Counted from the stretch's first letter, positions 29,279 through 42,257 are shown. The stretch: 42,257 nucleotides of DNA from an uncultured Pseudomonadales bacterium (GCA_949430125.1 CASQMQ010000061.1:1-42257); one strand, 5' to 3'. Program-made: numbers and translations. Notes: generated by a model not told the origin, from the sequence alone.

Positions 29279-30834
29279 CTAGGATGCGGGTATTTTTAGA
29301 ATTTGCCCGACCATGATGCGATCGTTAGTGATGTTGTTTACCTGGCGCAAACTACCCAGACTAACTTGATACCGCTGCGCGATCTCGGAGAGCGTTTCCC
29401 CGCGACGAATCGTGTGTTCTTCCTGCTCCCCTGCGCCGACTCCCGGAATAGTAAGTTCCTGACCTACGTGAATCGTGTTCGAAGAAATTTTATTAGCCGA
29501 TTTTAATTCCGCTAGACTAACGTTGTAGCGCTGCGCGATTACCGAAAGGCTATCACCTCTCTTCACCATATAGATGCCAGGCATGGGCACGATGCCGTTT
29601 GCCTTCTGCCAGGCGACAAGAGAACCCTGGGGGGGCGCATCGTAGAAATAATTCATCACGCCCTGCGCGATGCCGCGCGCAAGCTTCTGCTGGAATGCAG
29701 ATGTGTTAAGCCTTCTGGCTTCATCAGGGTTCGTGAGATAACCAGTTTCGATAAGCATCGAAGGTATGTCCGGCGACTTCAACACTTCTAACGATGCCTG
29801 CTGCACCTTGTCACGGCGCAGACGTGTCATGCCATCCAAGGATTCCAAAACACGAGTACCCGCGATCAGACTCTGCTCCATGCTCCAAGCCATCTGCAGT
29901 GAGACGAGCGTAAGCGCGACATCGTCGTCCCAGGAACTGAGATCAAGATCGCCGCCCACGCCGCCTAGTAAGTCCGCAGTTATTTTCCTTCTGCGCGACA
30001 CGACGAGAATTTTCTCGGTCGGCTCTATCACCCGATAGCGCATAAATAGTCAGGCCATTGGCACGGCTAGTACGATACCAATCGGTATGCACCGCGACGA
30101 AGAGGTCAGCGCGCTTCTCGCGGGCGATTTCAGAACGGCGCTGTAATTCAACATAGTAGTCACCATCACGAATCATGATTGGCGTGTAGCCGGGCATTCT
30201 TTCAAGTTGATTGAATAAGAGCGCGCGCTATTTTTAGCGTGATGTTCTTCTCTCTTAGCTTGCCATCAAATCCGATGCCGCCGGGATCTTCACCGCCGTG
30301 TCCTGCCGAGATCGCAACGATTATATTACGACGCTCATCGCTACGGGGAGCACTAGTAGAATTCGAGGATACGGTGCTGGTGTTTTTCGGCTCATCAGCA
30401 GATGGCGACTCGCCATAAAGATCGACAACCAGACGATCGCCTTGTTCGCTATTCGGTGCGAGCGTAAAACTACGCGGCTCAACCTCAGTAACAAGATCGA
30501 TCACCATGCGCAGAGTGTCGCCATCTCGAATCGCACTGCGTATGCCGCTAATCGGACTCTCATTAAAATCGAGTCTAGACAAATCGCCACCCAAGGACGA
30601 GCCTTCTATGTCGATAACCACACGAGCTGGGTTCTCGAGCGTGAACAGCTTGTATTCCACCTCGCCGGACAGATCAAAAACGAGACGAGTATGGTCCGGC
30701 GCACGCCACACCCTTACCTCTTCCACATCAGCAGCAGACACAGCAAAACTCACCAGCAGCGTACAAACTGCTAGAGCGAGGGTAAGACAGCGATTGCTGC
30801 CCTCAATACTGCTTAGATTGTGTTGTGATTTCAT
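29279..30834 (-). CDS. amiC: N-acetylmuramoyl-L-alanine amidase (AmiB/AmiC type) with AMIN domain and two LysM domains; split by two single-base insertions
   Basis: AMIN domain (ORF 30202-30834, ISAGHGGEDPGGIGFDGKLREKNITLKIAR); middle frame MPGYTPIMIRDGDYYVELQRRSEIAREKRADLFVAVHTDWYR; C-terminal frame LLGGVGGDL..VLKSPDIPSMLIETGYLTNP plus two LysM repeats. Confidence 0.92.
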
Positions 30835-31631: not shown

Positions 31632-34546
31632 TTATCCGCCGGGAGTAAAATCGATGGACACGAAGAATTGACGATAAAAGTTATTGATCAACCTAGACTC
31701 AAAGCCTCCTATTTGCCCAGTCAACGTAGGCTTGTAATCCAGGAGATTGTTCACTCCAGCAGACAGGGTAACTGCGCTGTTGAAGAAATCGTCAATGAAA
31801 TACGAGTAGCGCACATCGATGATAGGGTCCTCATCAATTTCACTAGGGGCCACAAACTGCCCATCAAATTGGTACAAGTCAACTATCTGGGCGTCATGAT
31901 CAACAGCACTAAACCAGCTTACCGACATTGACGCACTGTGATTGTTGCGGAACCAATTGTTTTGCCATGCCATTTTTACTTTCGGAATTGGGGGGGCGAT
32001 ATTAGTCCGCGCGTTCTGTTTTCCGAGAACATCTACAGGATTACCTTTCTTGTCTGTAAAGAGATAATCTGTATAGACCGTGGCATTGAGGCGTGTGTTG
32101 AATGTTCCCCAGTCACCTGGACTAAAAGAGTATTCCGCTTTCATGTCGAACAAGCTGACATCAAATTGTGCTACGTTGGCTGACTGAATCAGCACAAGTG
32201 ACACACGGCCATCAGGGTCGCGGAAGATATTCCCGCCGGCACCACCAACAGGCTGGGCACCCAGCCAGGCATCGGCGGCCTTTCGAGAGGCTGAGCCGGG
32301 AGTGGAGTCATAGGACCCTTCACTTTGGCCAGTATCCCGAAGCATAGAAGCGAACTGGTTCCGAGTTACGTCATCCTCAGTTAGAGTACGAATTCGGTCA
32401 GTATATTCAATTTCCTGATAGTCCATGGACAACTCAAAGCCTTCAAGCCTGCCCTCTGCCTGCCAAGTGAATCCGACATTAAGAATCTCTGCCTGTTCTG
32501 GGCCGAGATTTGGATTGCCCGATTGACATTTCAGTCCGCCAAGCAGCAGTTGCCCGCTGAAGTCGTCACTGCCGCTGTACATATCACCGCAGTTTTCGTT
32601 CGTAGTGGCCGCTCGGGTCTGGAATGAGGTCGGTGCCAAGAAGCTTTCGCCCCAAGACGCTCTCAGTGCTAGTCCAGGAATTATTTCATACCGCGCGGAA
32701 ATCTTGGGTGTAGTAGTCGACAGACCTTGGTCAGTAAATTGCTCACTCCGCACCGCAGCCTTGATAGCCAGATTCTCTAAGATAGGAACTTCTATCTCAG
32801 CAAACACTGAGCGGACTGCAGAGTTAAATACTTCGTCGCCTGCTATAGGCTCGCCATTCACTCCCCAGATGAAATTCTCTCCTGAAGCTTCGAATGGCTC
32901 TTGAAAAGTGCGCTCTTCCAAGTCACGCCATTGAAAGCCAAAGGCCATCTGCACAGCGCCGGCCGGAACATCAAATACTTCGCCCGTGAGCATAGTTTCA
33001 AAAACATCCAGAGCTTTACGTGAATTTTCCTGGTTTGGATTCTGGTACTGCATCCAGTTATTTAGTTCTCTGGGATTTTCGAATCCCGGCTCATGATAAG
33101 GAGATCGAGGGTCTCGAGAGCCGAAGGGATTAAACCACTGATCACCGGAGGCGCCACCTTCCCCGCGAAGAGCTAACTGCAGGCGGGATGCGTAGACACC
33201 TGAAACATCGCGTTTACTGGAGCTATCTTGCTTGGTGTAGTAGGTATAACCAGACCAACTAGTGTTGCCGAGGTCATAATCTGCAGACAGCTTGACGCGA
33301 TTGGTTTGATAGATCCCGTCGAACTGGCGAGATGTGTCAGTATTAATGCCATCAGGGAGGTACTGCGGCAGGGGATGAGTATAAATTCTCCACAGATCAG
33401 GGGCCACGTCAAACCCATAAGGGTTGGCAGGGTGCTCCTCTGGGATCACTAGCATTGATCGGTTATTAGCCGGATTAGGCGAAGCAAATGTGCTTCTGTC
33501 TTGGTTAACACGCGCATGGTTATTCATCATGAAGCCAAAACTCAACCAGTCGGCAGCTTCCCATTGAAGGTTGTTATAAACGTTATATTCTTGTTGCTGC
33601 AGAACCACTTCAGCCTGAGCGCTGTACTCAAAAGTACAGAAGTTGCCACTGTGTGCGGTTCCAGATGGCAGGGGAGAGGGCCCGTAGCCATGGGTTGGAG
33701 TGCCTTGGTTAAACGTTCCGCATGAAGGGTCTAGCAAGCGGGGACCCGTCAGTGTAGCCCCGCTCTTTCCTCTTAATGGAAGGGTGCTAAGGTCGTCAGG
33801 GACCCCCTCAAGCTGCTTAAATGATCCAGGGTTTCCGGAACTGGAGGTGCCTCGGGATACATTGTGTTCGCGTCCGCGCTCGTACCACATAAGGGGTGTG
33901 CGCTGATAGGTTTCGGCGGATCCGACATAACTGAGACCGTTGTCCCATGACTTACCCCATAACGCGGAGATACGCATTTCTTCCATCTTTCCATCTTCAG
34001 GCCTCTGATAAAAAGTACGGAATTTAACTCCGTCGTATTCCTTGATGGGAATCAGGTTGACCACGCCGGCCACCGCGTCGGACCCATACAGCGCGGAACC
34101 ACCATCCAACACCAGTTCCATCCGTTCCATCGCGATGTCCGGGAAGGCGGTATTCAAGCGCGAATCGATTGTACGTACACCATCTACCAGGGTCAGAGTG
34201 GAGTTTTCACCCAGGCCACGTAGGTTGAAACTGGCCCCTTAGAGCGGTTTGTGGGCCGTCCTGGCTACCAAGTACAACGTCGACAATATCAACGTTCTGA
34301 ACATAGCTCAGCTCGCGTATGTATTCCGACATGTTCGGCGTGCCTGATGCTGAGAAGGTCCGCACCCGTGACTGTATCTGCCGCTGTATCCTGCGAGAAC
34401 GCACTGTTCCTAATGTAGGAGCCTGTGACGACAATTTCTTCAACCTCGTCATCTTGGGCTTGGGCTATTACCGGCGCTACAAGTGAAGACATGAGAGCCG
34501 TATGAATGAGATATGAAAGCTTCTTACGTCGAAATTTATTGGGCAT
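31632..34546 (-). CDS. TonB-dependent receptor, N-terminus split by two single-base insertions
   Basis: Signal peptide and TonB-box-like EEIVVTGSYIRN (34289-34546), plug domain in a second frame (SASGTPNMSEYIRELSYVQNVDIVDVVLGSQDGPQTALRG), then ASFNLRGLGENSTLTLVDGVRTIDSRLNTAFPDIAMERMELVLDGGSALYGSDAVAGVVNLI and an 841-aa barrel. Confidence 0.95.
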
Positions 34547-34725
34547 TTACCCTCTCCTTGGCTGCACGTTGGAGGCTTAAAATCCGGCCTCAAGTGCTGC
34601 TCGTAATTTTAATAAGTACTCTCTGAGTAAGTTTCCCTGCATCTCCATGACAACAATATTGAGCGAGCAGTATGGTCCCTTAGAAATAAAACTAGCATAT
34701 AGTAATATAACATTAAAGTGTTTTT

Positions 34726-34753
34726 AAAGGTTTATAAGCTTTATAGGTTATGG
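34726..34753 (-). promoter_or_regulatory. Candidate shared regulatory element upstream of the TonB receptor (copy A)
   Basis: Minus-strand CCATAACCTATAAAGCTTATAAACCTTT; matches copy B at 39372-39399 at about 23 of 28 positions with one gap. Confidence 0.5.
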
Positions 34754-35041
34754 TGCTTGGTGGAACATATGCATATCGAAGATAGCGCGCTTATAGCAGG
34801 GGCGCCGCAATGCCCGCAGGTAGGACCCTCGCGGTGCATGCAGTAATTCAAATCGGCGGTAGGGGGACCCGGCACAATGCTGTATAAACACACATCCCGC
34901 CGGTTACAATTTATTACAATCTAGAGCGATATTCAGTATCAACTGACAACTATCTATATCTTTCGCCACGTATCTTTGCGCCCGGAGAAATCTAATTTTT
35001 TTAGAGCTAACTTATCAATGCCATTTAATGTATTTATTATT

Positions 35042-35962
35042 TCATTGTGTAACACGAACACGCTGGTAAGCGTTGCTCCAACAGCACTGATCTAGGCCAT
35101 CGCTATCAGAGGAGTTCCAATTATCCAGCCGGGCGCGAATCATATACTCACCAGGTTCAGTGAAGGTAGCCATAACCCTCGCCGGGCCCTTGCCAGCAGG
35201 TATTGAAACTCTAGATGCAGCTGCCGGTATCATTCCGCGGGTTGATCGAGCTGGAGTTGTGATGAAAGGCGTAGAAGCATGTTCAGTAAAACTCACTTCA
35301 CCAGGACCCTGATGCTTGTACCATATGACGCGGGAGTCAAGGGGCTTGGCAAAGAGAGGATTTGAAGGATCACGCACGGACGGATCTTCGGTCTCAACTC
35401 CCAAAGTAAGCGGAACGCCGACGGAAATTGTTCTAGTATTGGCCGCTACGACACCTTCAGGACCAGATCCACGATTTTCATTTTCAAACCAAATAAATGG
35501 TTGAACACTGCCCTGTGGCCGTGGGTTTCTATCAAGCTCATACGCACTCGACCCGCGCTCGCCAGGCACTTTAAGCTCTTCTAGGTTGTCGGTTTTGATG
35601 TGCCACCAAACAGACTCATCCTTCATTGATTCTGGAATAGTGACCCCAAAGACTCCAGGATGTCGGCCTGAAAAATAAATATCAGGCTGCATCCCGTCCA
35701 ACTGGGCAGGCTCAACGCGATTATTCTCACCCAATGGGACAATTACATCTTCAGCATTTCTGTTGTGGTACCCAAACGAGACAGTGACAGTGCCGTCCTC
35801 GTTAGCATACCAGCCTTCCATAAAAGGAATTATTGGTATGCCTGCCGGGGAAGGCGGACGTAAAGGTCTTACTGCTTGCTGTGCATCAGCAGAAACTACC
35901 ATTACAACATTTACTAGTAACGCCAAAGCTACACTGGCCACAGCTGGCCTAACACTTCTCAT
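35042..35962 (-). CDS. Secreted protein of unknown function
   Basis: Signal peptide (ASVALALLVNVVMVVSADAQQ); 306 aa beta-rich (EGWYANEDGTVTVSFGYHNRNAEDVIVPLGENNRVEP; C-terminal FTEPGEYMIRARLDNWNSSDSDGLDQCCWSNAYQRVRVTQ). Confidence 0.8.
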   Translation of the reverse strand: MRSVRPAVASVALALLVNVVMVVSADAQQAVRPLRPPSPAGIPIIPFMEGWYANEDGTVTVSFGYHNRNAEDVIVPLGENNRVEPAQLDGMQPDIYFSGRHPGVFGVTIPESMKDESVWWHIKTDNLEELKVPGERGSSAYELDRNPRPQGSVQPFIWFENENRGSGPEGVVAANTRTISVGVPLTLGVETEDPSVRDPSNPLFAKPLDSRVIWYKHQGPGEVSFTEHASTPFITTPARSTRGMIPAAASRVSIPAGKGPARVMATFTEPGEYMIRARLDNWNSSDSDGLDQCCWSNAYQRVRVTQ

Positions 35963-36018
35963 GAATATCAGTCTCCAATATTATTAGATCTATAGCGGGA
36001 GTTGTATTGTGTAACTTA

Positions 36019-37383
36019 CTAATCTCCAGATGGTAGCTGGGACTGCTTGTTACTTTCTCGCGCTTCAGCAAGTTCCTGATAAGTTTCATCATCAAGATGA
36101 CTTATGGCTATCCAGGAATGAGACATCTCGTCTGCTGTACGTTGGCCCCAGCCTACCCACTGCCTAGGGTCAGGGTTGTTGGGGTTATTGGCCGTATTGT
36201 CATACCACTGCTTGGTTATGAGAACGGCTCCTGTCGGCAATAGTGGAGCTGTATCTGGCTCATACAGATGACTATGATGCCAAGTGGCACTCCAATTGGA
36301 TATCATACTGACCAATTCAGTGCGGCCGGTTTCTGGATAGAAAATCTCCAATGAAGCAGCATTCATGCGCAGATGCCCATGGGGTTGGTAGCTGTCGATG
36401 CGAACCGGGTGATCAAAGGAGTGGAAGCCCTGAGTCATAGCCAATCCATGAGGCGGGATAAATAGATCGCCCTGGTCTAACTGGTAAGATGCCAGGTCCT
36501 GAGTGATTTTGGCTTGATACCCTTTCGGATGAAGCCAGATACCCAACTCCACTACGTTGTCCTTAACCACTGCGTTTGGTGCAGTCCCGCCCAAGCCGCC
36601 GGGATACATATGGATGTCCCATTGAATCGTGCTGTCTTCAAAAGCTGTACGGCAAACACCTTCCGGTACGACTTCGCCCCACTTACCCATGGCATATTCA
36701 GTAACGGGCTTTCTATCGACACTGCCGTCCTCTTTTACCTCTGCAAAATACGTGTTGGCGTGATGGACTACTGTCTTCGCAACGCCGCGAGGCTTGACCT
36801 GAAGAGCCTTGATGCAACGGTCTTCGGTGATACCACTTTCAATAAAATGCTTGTCCCACAGGTCGTTGCCATTAGCAGGTACATCGATCGGATTGGATGC
36901 GACCACGATATCTGGCTGGCCGAATTGAGCAGAGAAATTCCAATCATCAATAGCTCGCAGTTTTGGTGGGGCAGGCAGTTCTTCAAGATTTCCCAAGGGA
37001 GAGCCCTGATTAACCCACGCCACAACGGTATCGATATCTTCCTCAGAAAGGCGCCAATCTGCCTGAAGGTTTTGATTGCCGATATCATGGTCATAGGCGT
37101 AAGGGGGCATTTCTCGGTTTGCCACCTTCATCTGAATCAAGGGCGCCCAAGGGCGCACTTGATCATAGCTACTCAGTTCCATAGGCCCAATGCCACCTTC
37201 ACGGTGACAGACCACGCAATTCTCATTAATAATACTGGCTACGTGGCCTGAGTAAGTCACGGATTCTTCACTATTTGCTGTGTTCGCAGCAATCACCGTT
37301 TGTGCCTGAAACCCCAAAAAAGTAACAACCGCAATGCCAGCTCCAAGATGTGGCAACTTATTCAATTTCTGCAAAATACTCAT
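36019..37383 (-). CDS. Secreted cytochrome c domain fused to a PHM-like copper type II monooxygenase-type domain
   Basis: Heme motif ENCVVCHREGGIGPMELSSYDQVRPWAPLI; copper-ligand-like pattern VVHHANTYF, WDIHMYP, QPHGHLRM and DNTANNPNNPDPRQWVGWGQRTADEMSHSW. Confidence 0.82.
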   Translation of the reverse strand: MSILQKLNKLPHLGAGIAVVTFLGFQAQTVIAANTANSEESVTYSGHVASIINENCVVCHREGGIGPMELSSYDQVRPWAPLIQMKVANREMPPYAYDHDIGNQNLQADWRLSEEDIDTVVAWVNQGSPLGNLEELPAPPKLRAIDDWNFSAQFGQPDIVVASNPIDVPANGNDLWDKHFIESGITEDRCIKALQVKPRGVAKTVVHHANTYFAEVKEDGSVDRKPVTEYAMGKWGEVVPEGVCRTAFEDSTIQWDIHMYPGGLGGTAPNAVVKDNVVELGIWLHPKGYQAKITQDLASYQLDQGDLFIPPHGLAMTQGFHSFDHPVRIDSYQPHGHLRMNAASLEIFYPETGRTELVSMISNWSATWHHSHLYEPDTAPLLPTGAVLITKQWYDNTANNPNNPDPRQWVGWGQRTADEMSHSWIAISHLDDETYQELAEARESNKQSQLPSGD

Positions 37384-37409
37384 TAGCCTCTCCTAATTAT
37401 TTGGGTAAG

Positions 37410-37562
37410 TTAGAAAACTACAAAACTGAGAGACGCCAATTCACAGTTGGTCAGTTGCATCGAGGCGATACCGGTTTCACGGTGGCTGACCACGTATTTT
37501 CCTTCTAGAATTGCTACGGCGCAGCCATTGCAAGCGACATCGAGCTGCTCAGCAGCCAACAT
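37410..37562 (-). pseudogene. Degenerate remnant (or small ORF) similar to the cytochrome c segment of the neighbouring gene
   Basis: MLAAEQLDVACNGCAVAILEGKYVVSHRETGIASMQLTNCELASLSFVVF; VVSHRETGIASMQL aligns with VVCHREGGIGPMEL; about two thirds nucleotide identity over about 57 nt by eye. Confidence 0.55.
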
Positions 37563-37631
37563 GGTCCTGCTGAGAAATCACTGAGCCAGCGTCAGGCCGA
37601 CAATCATTGGTGAGCGCTGCGGCGCCATAGT

Positions 37632-37651
37632 TTGTCTATACAAATTTAGAC
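37632..37651. promoter_or_regulatory. Inverted repeat, possible operator
   Basis: TGTCTA-TACAAATT-TAGACA. Confidence 0.35.
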
Positions 37652-37797
37652 AGGGGGACAATCCAAGGCGCTATAACATATACAACGTTTGGACTTTAAT
37701 GTTTCTAAAGACATTTGTCCAATGGCTTTTCTCGGAAATAGAGCGATCTTTCAAGCCCTAGCTGAGGTGCAGTCAGCCACTTTTTGGGCTTGTCTGA

Positions 37798-38535
37798 TCA
37801 GGTGACCTTGCTGGTCGCTTTCGCTAGATCTGCCGCATGCTGCAGATGGGTCAGCCGGCCGAGCTGTTGTAATGACGTCAAGTGTGAATAAATCAGGGGC
37901 AGTAATCCCCGTTCGCGCAGTTCCTGAAATTCATCATTACTGAGTTTTTCAAGCGCATCCTCATCTATCATATACATTCCCTCCACTTCATATTTTGGGG
38001 AGCTCTCTGTATGTTGCAGTTTAAGTGGGCGCGAGGTGAGCAGTCGTTTTTCGGCCAGGTAGCGGCACAGTGCAATAGACTGCACGGATTGCTGAGTTAC
38101 TCTGACCACGTGATCAATACGCTTATTTAAGTAGTCTGTCGGCAGACCATCGCTCCGGTACAAGGGTTCGCCGACGGTTTCACTCAGCAGCGGACTCTGT
38201 TCATCGATGGCTATATCTGCCTCGTTGCTGTCAGGATCCAGTCGACTCACGGATAGCGGCGCAAGGGTGAAACTTGCTGGTATGAAAACCGGCTGCCATT
38301 CGAGTGTCTGACAATAGAGATTAACGCCCTTGTTCAAGCCCATCATAGCGCCCGGCACAAAATCTCCGGTCTTCTTGTTTCTGATAAAAACCAGCGGGAA
38401 CTCCGTAGCCAACTCATAGAATTCTTGGAACACCACTGGAACAAAATTCTCTGCTTTATGGCTTGTGAAATCTTTTGGCTCGCTCAAGCAAAGCTTGCCG
38501 TGTTTCTCGAAATTAAGAAGAACCGGTTCAGACAT
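37798..38535 (-). CDS. SapC-family protein
   Basis: ENFVPVVFQEFYELATEFPLVFIRNKKTGDFVPGAMMGLNKGVNLYC..WQPVFIPASFTLAPLSV; typical SapC-family pattern. Confidence 0.87.
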   Translation of the reverse strand: MSEPVLLNFEKHGKLCLSEPKDFTSHKAENFVPVVFQEFYELATEFPLVFIRNKKTGDFVPGAMMGLNKGVNLYCQTLEWQPVFIPASFTLAPLSVSRLDPDSNEADIAIDEQSPLLSETVGEPLYRSDGLPTDYLNKRIDHVVRVTQQSVQSIALCRYLAEKRLLTSRPLKLQHTESSPKYEVEGMYMIDEDALEKLSNDEFQELRERGLLPLIYSHLTSLQQLGRLTHLQHAADLAKATSKVT

Positions 38536-38584
38536 GTTAGTAATCAGCCTTTTGTGTTTGATCTACGGTCCACTTGAAACTTCT

Positions 38585-39300
38585 TCACGCGCTCAGTAAC
38601 CGATGGGGTTTTTGTTCAAGCCTGAAAAAAGATGCGACTGAAAGCCTACCTTTAGAGGTGTCACTATCGAGGCTGTCTGGCGACGAGAGCATGGCGCAAT
38701 GTAGCAAATTTGAAGGGTATAGTACCAGTCGATTCAATCTGGCCTTGACCACCAGCTCCTGCTTGAACAGGTTGTGTCGCCGTTCAGGTAGCCTAAGTGC
38801 TCGGCTGGGTGACTCCGCACGTTTTCAATCATCTCATCCATAACACCGCGATCATCACGCCTTATCTTGACTAAGTTACGTGGACGATAACGATAAATTG
38901 CCGTGCCCCCATGTGGCTCACCACAGAGATAATGTACGGCAGCATATTGATCATCACTGAACGCATCGACGTGCGGCATCTTTTGGGCTGCACTCAGTTG
39001 TGTCGGCTGGAGAGTAGTCAATGAAATCATGCTGCGATGGACTACAGGGTTGTGGAAACCGTATACCAGTTCTATGACCTTACCCATGGCCTCATCATAA
39101 GAGCTTGGCAGACGATCACGAATACCCGGGTAGGCTGTGCCGTCATCGCCAACATTACCGAAGTAGGCTTTTTCCCGCGCATACTCGACTAATACCTCTG
39201 GATTCGCTAAAAAATTATCGACGACATACACCGAAATCTCAGGATCCGTATGCTGAATTTTCTCGACGTTCATTGCTTGATTAAGTATAAACTCTAGCAT
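38585..39300 (-). CDS. DUF6445-type protein, one frameshift near 38771-38778
   Basis: ISVYVVDNFLANPEVLVEYAREKAYF..YPGIRDRLPSSY..MPHVDAFSDDQYAAVHYLCGEPHGGTAIYRYR. After the frame change the tail reads NLFKQELVVKARLNRLVLYPSNLLHCAMLSSPDSLDSDTSKGRLSVASFFRLEQKPHRLLSA. Confidence 0.8.
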
Positions 39301-39371
39301 GGTTAGCGGTACTTACTTATTGCCTGCACTTAGAATGATGTTCTCTGGTTTGAGCGAGCCGCCCAAATATT

Positions 39372-39399
39372 CCATAAACCTATAAAACATATAAAACAT
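39372..39399 (+). promoter_or_regulatory. Candidate shared regulatory element in the DUF6445/halogenase divergent region (copy B), containing two tandem ATAAAACAT units
   Basis: CCATAAACCTATAAAACATATAAAACAT; ATAAAACAT at 39382-39390 and 39391-39399. Confidence 0.5.
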
Positions 39400-39523
39400 A
39401 TCAGATTGAATAATGTAAGCTCCGGAATGTCAACCCGGAAGTATCATTGCGGACTTGGGCGGTGACGGCAGCATGAAGGCAAGTCTTTATTAAACTTGGT
39501 GAATTCAACGAACGAATCCAGTA

Positions 39524-41093
39524 GTGCATCGCCAATATACCAATTGGCAGCTGACAGAAAAGAAAGGGATTTCCGTGGACAATAACAATATCAAACACAT
39601 AGTAATCGTTGGGGGCGGCACGTCGGGTTGGATGTCAGCAGCCGCCCTGAGCCGCATCGTCGGTACGCAAGATTGCAAGATCACCTTAGTCGAATCCGAA
39701 CAGGTAGGTACGGTAGGCGTCGGTGAAGCGACGATTCCACCCATTGTAGAGTTCAATAACCTGCTTGGTATCAATGCCGACGAAATGCTAAGTGCGACAC
39801 AAGGCACGTTCAAGCTCGGTATTGAATTCACAAACTGGGGCAGAATAGGTGACGCCTACATGCACCCTTTCGGAGTCTTTGGGCGCACCATTATGAATGT
39901 CAGTTTCTGGCACTATTGGAAAAAGGCCTATGAACTCGGCCTTTCGCCTCCACTGGATGCTTACTCGCTGAATTGGCTTGCGGCAAAGCAGAACCGATTT
40001 TTACGTAGTGGTAATGTCCCCAACTCGCCACTATCCAAGGTGCACCACGCCTATCACTTTGACGCCAATCTTTATGCGCGTTTTCTCCGCGAGTTCAGTA
40101 CTGGCCTTGGTGTAAATCGAATTGAAGGGCTCGTAGAACAAGTAATTCAGGATCCACAGTCAGGCTTTATCAAAGGCATCAAGCTTCAGGATAGTACTAT
40201 TGTCAATGGGGACTTCTTCATAGACTGCACAGGGTTTCGGGGTTTACTGATAGAGCAATGCCTAGAAACTGGCTATGAGGATTGGAGTCACTACTTGCCC
40301 TGCAACAGTGCCCAGGCCGTGCCAACGGCAGCGCTAAGCCAGAAAGCAGCCTTATACCAAATCTATTGCGCACTCCAACGGCTGGCAATGGCAAATTCCT
40401 CTACAGCACAGAACAGGCAACGGCATTGTCTACAGCACCGAATTTGCCAGTGACGAACAGGCGCAGGAGATGCTGTTGGCGAACTTGCCCAGTACAGCGC
40501 TTGCGGAGCCTAGGCAGCTTCGTTTTGTGACAGGAAAGCGCAAGAAGAGTTGGAATAAAAACTGCCTCGCTGTTGGTCTTTCCAGTGGCTTTATGGAACC
40601 GCTTGAATCGACTAGTATTCATCTCATCCAATCAACAATCATGAGATTCCTTTCCCTGTTTCCACGCCGCGACAATTTTGATATTGAAATGAATCGCTTC
40701 AATAATGACGTCGATCGAGAATTCCGGACGGTCCGCGACTTTCTCATTCTGCATTACAAGGCGACGCAGCGTGATGACTCTGAGCTATGGAATTATTGTC
40801 GCAACATGGAGATTCCAGATTCCTTGCAGGAAAAACTGGATCTTTATCAATCAGGTTCCTGGCTTGAGAGAGATAAACAAGAGTTATTTGGTGTCGACAG
40901 TTGGTTGGCAGTACTCAATGGTCAGCACGTTAGAGCCGAGAGCTATAGTCCCCTGGTTGATAGTTTGCCTAAGGACAAGCTTGAAAGCATACTGCGAGAA
41001 ACTCGCGAAGTTATCGCGCAATGCGCGACAGCCATGCCTTCTCATGAAGATTTTATCCGCAAACATTGTGCCGACCCGACCCTGCATCAGTGA
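39524..41093 (+). CDS. Flavin-dependent tryptophan halogenase-family protein, one frameshift near 40343-40345
   Basis: IVIVGGGTSGWMSAAALSRI (FAD GxGxxG), VGVGEATIPPI; removing one A gives [38 protein letters not shown] with the WxWxIP motif; C-terminal SSGFMEPLESTSIHLIQ. Confidence 0.93.
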
Positions 41094-41260
41094 TGCATAA
41101 CTGAGTAAATCAGGGCCCTCTAGCTCTTTGTTTCGATTGACTTCACTAAAGGGGGACAGAATAGGCTTTCTGCTTAATACAAGGTAAGGGTTTGCTTAGT
41201 CGCAAAAAGCCAAGGCAGCTTCCATTTTTTATGCAAGGGTTTCAATCTATTTATTGTTGG

Positions 41261-42060
41261 CTAATTGCGAGGCAATGTACCGAGACTATTGTCGCGTTGT
41301 CCGGTGAATTCGAAGCCACGTTCTGGCCAGGAACGAATTAATTTTGAACGCTTCTTCCAGGCACTTATAGCTTTATCCTTGTCTTTGCTCAGGACGGCTT
41401 TAGCAAAGCTGATCCTGCTGGCGTGGTTGGATACCATAATTTCTTTATTCCCCTCGAAAGTGCCGGAGAAGCGACTCAGACTGACTTGGTTCCAGAGGAT
41501 TCCGAGAAATAGCTCCAGCAGGATATTGTTCGACATCCGGGCAAGCAAAGCCATTAAATCATGCTGACACTTTGAACGAATATTCATGAGGCAGCTGGGT
41601 ATTATCGCTACTCTCATGCTTCCCCCCTACAAACAATCTAAGTTCATTTATCAGCCCCTCGTCTTTGCATTTTACCGCGGCTTTTAGAGCCTGGATCACC
41701 ATCGGATCGGCTACATCCATGAATGTGGCGTTACTGATCAAAACTTTGGAAGCCAAAAACTGGCTAGCTGACTTCATGGCAGTTTCTATAGTAGGCCGAC
41801 GCGTGAAATAGCCTCCTCCTTTGCCTGGCTTGATCGTAAGCAGCTCCTCGTATTCCAGCATGCGAGCGGCTTGCCGTAATGTGGGCAGACTGACACCGAC
41901 TTCTGCCGCTAGGTCGGCTTCCGAACCCATATACGCCTCTTCTTCCATGATCAAGATACGTTCACGCAAGATAATTGCGACACGATCAGCTGTCGAGCTT
42001 GATTTTACTAATGGTGGTCTTTTAGCTTTCACTATAGCCCCCCCCCGGCGGCAATTTCAT
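41261..42060 (-). CDS. GntR-family transcriptional regulator (FCD-like C-terminus), frameshifted near 41572-41574 and probably at the G9 tract
   Basis: wHTH ADRVAIILRERILIMEEEAYMGSEADLAAEVGVSLPTLRQAARMLEYEELLTIKPGKGGGYFTRRP; C-terminal frame QHDLMALLARMSNNILLELFLGILWN...LSKDKDKAISAWKKRSKLIRSWPERGFEF. ATG at 42060 has AGGTG upstream. Confidence 0.85.
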
Positions 42061-42140: not shown

Positions 42141-42257
42141 TCAAGCTATGTTGCGATTTCTGGTTAGGTCGAAACCGCGTTTTGGGCAGGAACGAAGAAA
42201 CTTTGAGCGTTTCCTCCAGGCACTTAGGGCTTTATCCTTGTCTTTGGCCAGGACAGC
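42141..42257 (-). CDS. C-terminus of a second, paralogous GntR-type regulator (cut by window edge)
   Basis: Reverse reading AVLAKDKDKALSAWRKRSKFLRSCPKRGFDLTRNRNIA* aligns with AVLSKDKDKAISAWKKRSKLIRSWPERGFEFTGQRDN of the upstream gene. Confidence 0.8.
   Translation of the reverse strand, partial: AVLAKDKDKALSAWRKRSKFLRSCPKRGFDLTRNRNIA

Follow-up and report, generated by a model that had tools for sequence, protein, structure and literature searches.

Does a single regulator read the two similar AT-rich elements that lie upstream of a TonB-dependent receptor gene and between the divergent tryptophan halogenase and DUF6445 genes of an uncultured Pseudomonadales bacterium? The elements lie in a 42,257-nucleotide stretch of DNA (GCA_949430125.1 CASQMQ010000061.1:1-42257, hereafter the window) that holds a marine bacterium's uptake and halogenase cluster and comes from a draft genome of 1.95 Mb (G000). 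An earlier note had described a shared 28-bp AT-rich element and suggested that a local GntR protein could bind both copies. We find that the elements are arrays of 9-bp direct repeats, and consider it quite likely that these arrays are operators, as predicted from comparison of genomes, that would be bound cooperatively by the neighbouring GntR regulators, probably repressing a small local regulon in the manner of NanR.

The two 28-mers (minus strand, 34753-34726; plus strand, 39372-39399) were read directly from the sequence and, counted by hand, are identical in 23 of 28 columns with one gap. When the two intergenic regions were aligned locally the best score was 31, whereas dinucleotide shuffles had a mean of 20.4 and 3 in 1000 of them scored at least as high. 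The shared similarity holds, but the single 28-bp unit does not: each element is an array of 9-bp direct repeats of the form TATAAAnCw, which on the opposite strand reads GGTTTATA or GTTTTATA. The lag-9 self-match is 16 of 18 in the halogenase array (p = 0.002) and 13 of 18 in the receptor array (p = 0.016), and among lags 7 to 12 lag 9 alone is significant in both regions. The two arrays have the two-repeat core TATWAANCWTATWAA in common, with exact copies at 34731-34745 and 39381-39395, and the receptor array terminates in an opposed ATGTTATA half-site. (Letter matching between the arrays at unit 1 looked suggestive and was dropped as evidence because it breaks down in the related genome G102.) The spacing is similar, as had been claimed, with 180 bp from the array end to the receptor ATG (34546, minus strand) and approximately 175 bp to the homologue-supported halogenase start (GTG, 39575), or 125 bp to the first in-frame GTG (39524). 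The common orientation towards receptor and halogenase is likewise real, but it may not be the functional one because the halogenase array also overlies a plausible divergent DUF6445-sapC promoter; this array may serve either or both of the divergent genes. Immediately downstream of the halogenase array (39412-39439) there is an adjacent 14-bp direct repeat, AATGTAAGCTCCGG AATGTCAACCCGGA, with a lag-14 match of 18 of 28 that 1 of 400 shuffles equalled.

We searched 84 congeneric genomes for TATWAANCWTATWAA with zero mismatches. Exactly two matches each were found in G000 and in the related genomes G059 and G102 (2.8 and 3.6 Mb), always in the receptor and halogenase/DUF6445 promoters, and there was one match in G035 (halogenase promoter) and one in G013 (receptor promoter). 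Note that the pattern was derived from the window, and the matches in G000 are therefore there by design; the real test is thus that nothing further fits in 1.95 Mb and that the same two promoters are picked out in related genomes. Matches in other genomes, which lack the regulator, were mostly single and without an array, and several are apparently in coding DNA. Genome-wide, the core is not scattered over random AT-rich sites. Moreover, a three-unit profile run over both strands of 1.09 Mb of extracted loci gave its top scores inside the cluster only, and lag 9 was not in excess at the promoters of 22 paralogous receptors, one of which reached p <= 0.02. (Another probe, CCATAAMCTATAAA with 2 mismatches, was too loose, giving 20 matches compared to 31 for the reversed control, and was replaced by the 9-bp-pitch core.)

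In syntenic relatives the motif is also kept ahead of the receptor orthologue, the halogenase orthologue or both. Six relatives share the block halogenase / DUF6445-sapC-cytochrome-c-domain gene-306-residue protein gene-receptor in syntenic order; in G099 it is rearranged. The halogenase array was found in G000, G102, G035, G013 and G059, and the receptor array in G000, G102, G013 and G059, with a diverged form in G019 (TTTAAACCT TTTAAAGGT TATAAATCC TTAAAACCT) and a degenerate one in G035; the array-bearing genomes are close relatives. Lag 9 was significant in four genomes for the receptor array, in four for the halogenase array and in three for the cytochrome-gene array described below. In G035 the halogenase array is near-perfect (17 of 18); it has been lost in G019 and, by lag analysis, is absent from the halogenase promoter of G099. 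The repeats of this array vary in concert, with TATTAAACA repeated in G035 and an ACT ending in G013, within flanks that are 92-96% identical, a pattern that may come from homogenisation of the repeats or from their drifting along with the regulator. In G013 only (L080 9150-9650), approximately 200 bp upstream of the receptor gene, just ahead of the array, are tandemly duplicated.

The predicted regulon reaches at least as far as the cytochrome-c-domain gene, and relatives add to it the gene of a 323-residue protein that looks secreted. The promoter of the cytochrome gene carries a third array, within which GTTGTATATGTTATA lies at 37672-37686. Its counterparts have a lag-9 match of 14 of 18 in G059 (AAGGTTATA AACGTTGTA AATGTTATA; p = 0.002) and lag-9 p values of 0.010 in G013 and 0.004 in G099 (TAAAGTTGT TAAAGTTGT). 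A separate pattern, GTTRTANNNGTTRTA, picks out two promoters, that of the cytochrome gene and, as the fourth of the set, that of the 323-residue protein gene in G013, G102, G035 and G059, where the layout is the same as at the cytochrome gene. (The match to this pattern at 33573-33587, and its equivalents inside the receptor gene, were set aside as coding constraint on codons for Y-N-[VL]-Y-N.) In 12 GntR-less genomes, copies of the 323-residue protein gene that are 71-87% identical have an unrelated promoter and no site; note that family members are numerous and that some of these 12 copies may be paralogues. The 70% identical copy in G019, where GntR is present, also has no site. The protein has no Pfam match and belongs to a large expanded family, with up to 23 matches per genome (G000-G104). 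Approximately 60-75 bp upstream of the gene, GntR-less genomes (L209-L230) and also G019 share another motif, GGCGTAGTTT/GGCGTAATTT, at which a different regulator may bind. A second cytochrome-c-domain gene is present in G099, where the cluster is rearranged and promoters (L110 12840-13325 and 9680-9940) carry weak or diverged 9-bp arrays.

Candidate promoters were read by eye from the sequence and from alignments. At the cytochrome gene the array starts at the -10 of a candidate promoter in which TGGACA is invariant and the -10 is TAAAGT, TAAAAT or TAAGGT, and at the candidate DUF6445-sapC promoter the -10 is inside the array. Sigma-70 consensus scans gave no convincing promoter at the arrays, and the DUF6445-sapC promoter is tentative because the scan lists none at that site. 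Since the array lies on or after the -10 at both of these promoters, its position supports repression. At the receptor gene a conserved -10 resembling TATATGCTA closely follows the array.

Tandem genes for two GntR regulators, GntR-A and GntR-B, stand beside the halogenase gene in G102, G013 and G059, and G099 has two GntR copies, one of them within the cluster. A FadR-type GntR (one or two genes) is present in 7 of the 84 genomes, each of which has the cluster, and an eighth cluster genome, G063 (assembly 84% complete), has neither GntR nor arrays. This linkage and co-occurrence lend comparative backing to the suggestion of the earlier note that a local GntR could bind both elements. GntR-A, GntR-B and the G099 copy all pass the cut-off for the N-terminal GntR winged helix-turn-helix (PF00392). 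For the C-terminal FCD/FadR domain (PF07729) the G099 copy passes the cut-off and GntR-B falls below it; the domain is not listed for GntR-A, whose structural model has a helical C-domain with FCD-family fold matches. Judged by these domains, the candidate regulators are FadR-subfamily GntR proteins, with a winged helix-turn-helix and a helical FCD-type C-domain. When the AlphaFold2 model of GntR-A was compared to all PDB chains, the best matches were NanR bound to DNA (6wfq) and NanR alone in the ranking's next place (6on4), other FadR-family regulators coming after them; with template-modelling (TM) scores of approximately 0.4, this ranking orders relatives and does not prove likeness. GntR-A and NanR are approximately 19% identical in the fold match. 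Nor is the regulator a NanR orthologue, the best NCBIfam match of the G099 GntR being NanR at 27.5 bits, far below the cut-off of 260.

The layout of the predicted operators points to a mechanism like that of NanR, and so does the protein of known structure that the regulator matches best. Escherichia coli NanR acts at nanATEK, nanCMS and yjhBC through operators in which 2-3 nt separate three GGTATA repeats (PMC3658417); three dimers bind these cooperatively, and at least two repeats are needed (PMC8012715). Shared features are a FadR-type GntR that has NanR as its best fold match, near-identical AT-rich direct repeats with a pitch of 8-9 bp and several dispersed operons, that of an outer-membrane uptake protein included; on the opposite strand the window arrays read AGGTTTATA-AGCTTTATA-GGTTATGG and TGTTTTATA-TGTTTTATA-GGTTTATGG, a form close to NanR sites. 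The N-terminal extension that drives cooperative assembly of NanR has 32 residues (PMC8012715); the stretch ahead of the GntR domain is approximately 28 residues long in GntR-A and in the G099 copy and approximately 14 in GntR-B, gene starts being uncertain. In contrast to E. coli, where NanR controls sialic-acid genes, the repeat here, with a pitch of 9 bp, is GGT(T)TATA/GTTTTATA and GGTATA itself is not used, most cluster genomes have two paralogous regulators, and no sialic-acid genes were seen in this cluster. FadR-subfamily operators are mostly TKGT-N3-ACMA palindromes, NanR being among the direct-repeat exceptions, and some of the palindromes carry additional half-sites at a distance of 7-12 nt from their centre (PMC4494728). 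The regulator family is shared with PdhR, LldR and FadR, whereas the half-sites here mostly repeat in one direction, with no TKGT-N3-ACMA palindrome at the four array promoters (arrays read directly), and the arginine of the classical recognition helix GRSTIREA aligns with Leu in SLPTLRQA. BldC also forms cooperative multimers on direct-repeat arrays, but it is a 68-residue MerR-like protein (PMC5859096), and no such gene was seen in this cluster.

In the mechanism that we infer, dimers of GntR-A and GntR-B would sit side by side, cooperatively, along operators made of 9-bp-pitch direct repeats, with GGTTTATA or GTTTTATA as the unit at the receptor and halogenase and GTTATA at the cytochrome gene. 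Occupied arrays would cover or abut promoter elements and probably repress the receptor, halogenase, DUF6445-sapC and cytochrome-c-domain genes and, in relatives, the 323-residue protein gene; a small-molecule ligand, presumably related to the receptor's import substrate, would release the regulators, as Neu5Ac releases cooperatively bound NanR. G019 carries an A-type GntR only (its regulator groups with GntR-A in the tree, 97/92) and has no halogenase array, and G035 carries a B-type only (grouping with GntR-B, 100/99) and has a degenerate receptor array. This pattern suggests that the two regulators divide the promoters between them. GntR-B is the best candidate for the halogenase/DUF6445 array. 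The full scheme, in which GntR-A would read the receptor and cytochrome-gene arrays, GntR-B the halogenase/DUF6445 array, and repeat letters would drift with the regulator, rests on two loss events and is offered as a speculative possibility.

Several points weigh against NanR-like repression by the linked regulators. The window's own cytochrome-gene array is weak, lag 9 not being significant (p = 0.399); co-occurrence of GntR and cluster is confounded by the shared ancestry of the seven related genomes; the structural model of GntR-A is modest (mean predicted local distance difference test score 67, TM approximately 0.42); no -35 can be recognised at the receptor promoter; and in the main clade neither GntR-A nor GntR-B has a clear array at its own promoter. 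(GntR autoregulation was rejected on the last count, a weak array being seen at the G099 GntR, lag-9 p = 0.046.) Because the receptor promoter lacks a clear -35, activation is possible there, the arrays then being activator sites upstream of weak promoters and GntR activating the receptor gene from a position just upstream of its -10; we think this unlikely, given the repressor position of the array at the candidate DUF6445 promoter and at the cytochrome-gene promoter, which has a good -35 and -10. Somewhat less probable still is that the arrays are operators of a different, unlinked regulator and the GntR genes mere neighbours: the main-clade GntR promoters and the preference of most FadR-type regulators for palindromes (PMC4494728) are in its favour, but GntR presence follows the arrays over the 84 genomes, joint absence in G063 included, and the best structural match is to NanR, a direct-repeat binder. 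A neutral slippage tract or AT-rich promoter DNA (an UP element or curved DNA) read by no specific regulator would account for the AT-richness and for repeat letters that shift jointly between close genomes within well-conserved flanks, but is very improbable given that four different promoters, all of one functional set, share the pitch and have related units, that the repeats are specific genome-wide, and that orthologous promoters in regulator-less genomes lack them.

Cooperative control by the linked GntR proteins would join the receptor, halogenase, DUF6445, SapC and cytochrome-c-domain genes, through a predicted operator, in one predicted regulon; the molecule that releases GntR would offer a direct route to the import substrate. 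It would also be a second, diverged case of NanR-like tandem-repeat control, with regulator duplication, and useful for the study of operator/regulator co-evolution. The SapC, DUF6445 and halogenase genes adjoin the TonB receptor gene in the window and in relatives, and none of the papers searched names SapC, tryptophan halogenase and TonB-dependent receptor together. Features of the cluster are collected in Table 1.

Table 1. Genes, repeat arrays and candidate promoters of the cluster, in window coordinates.
Feature	Coordinates	Strand	Basis and remarks
TonB-dependent receptor	31632..34546	minus	PF00593; frame broken near 34157, intact in relatives; orthologues 74-94% identical
Receptor-promoter array	34710..34753	minus	CCATAACC, TATAAAGCT (34745-34737), TATAAACCT (34736-34728), TTAAAAACA (34727-34719), CTTTAATGT (34718-34710)
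306-residue protein	35042..35962	minus	No Pfam match; syntenic in relatives
454-residue protein, N-terminal cytochrome c domain	36019..37383	minus	PF00034, 21.4 bits (cut-off 21.3)
Third array, cytochrome-c-domain gene promoter	37671..37703	minus	AACATTAAAGTCCAAACGTTGTATATGTTATAG; GTTATA-type repeats, 9-bp pitch
Candidate promoter, cytochrome-c-domain gene	37693..37721	minus	TGGACA-N17-TAAAGT; from alignment
SapC-family protein	37798..38535	minus	PF07277
DUF6445 protein	38734..39300	minus	PF20043
Halogenase/DUF6445 intergenic array, first units	39372..39416	plus	CCATAAACC (39372-39380), TATAAAACA (39381-39389), TATAAAACA (39390-39398)
Halogenase/DUF6445 intergenic array, last units		plus	TATCAGATT (39399-39407), GAATAATGT (39408-39416)
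Candidate promoter, DUF6445-sapC	39391..39419	minus	CTTACA-N17-TTTTAT; -10 inside array; sequence and alignment
Tryptophan halogenase-family gene	39575..41100	plus	PF04820 in both pieces; frame broken near 40450, intact in relatives
GntR-B, FadR-type GntR	41261..42032	minus	PF00392, orthology, tree; frame broken near 41560
GntR-A (second FadR-type GntR), C-terminal end	42144..42257	minus	Gene cut by contig end; 89% identical to G102 GntR-A

The reading frames of the receptor (34157-34546), halogenase (40450-40470) and GntR-B (41557-41565) genes appear to be broken in the window and are intact in relatives; the halogenase orthologue in L110 (8171-9682), for example, encodes 503 residues. An amidase gene is also split over two open reading frames (29279-30834), and together with the frame breaks this suggests insertion and deletion errors in the draft assembly.

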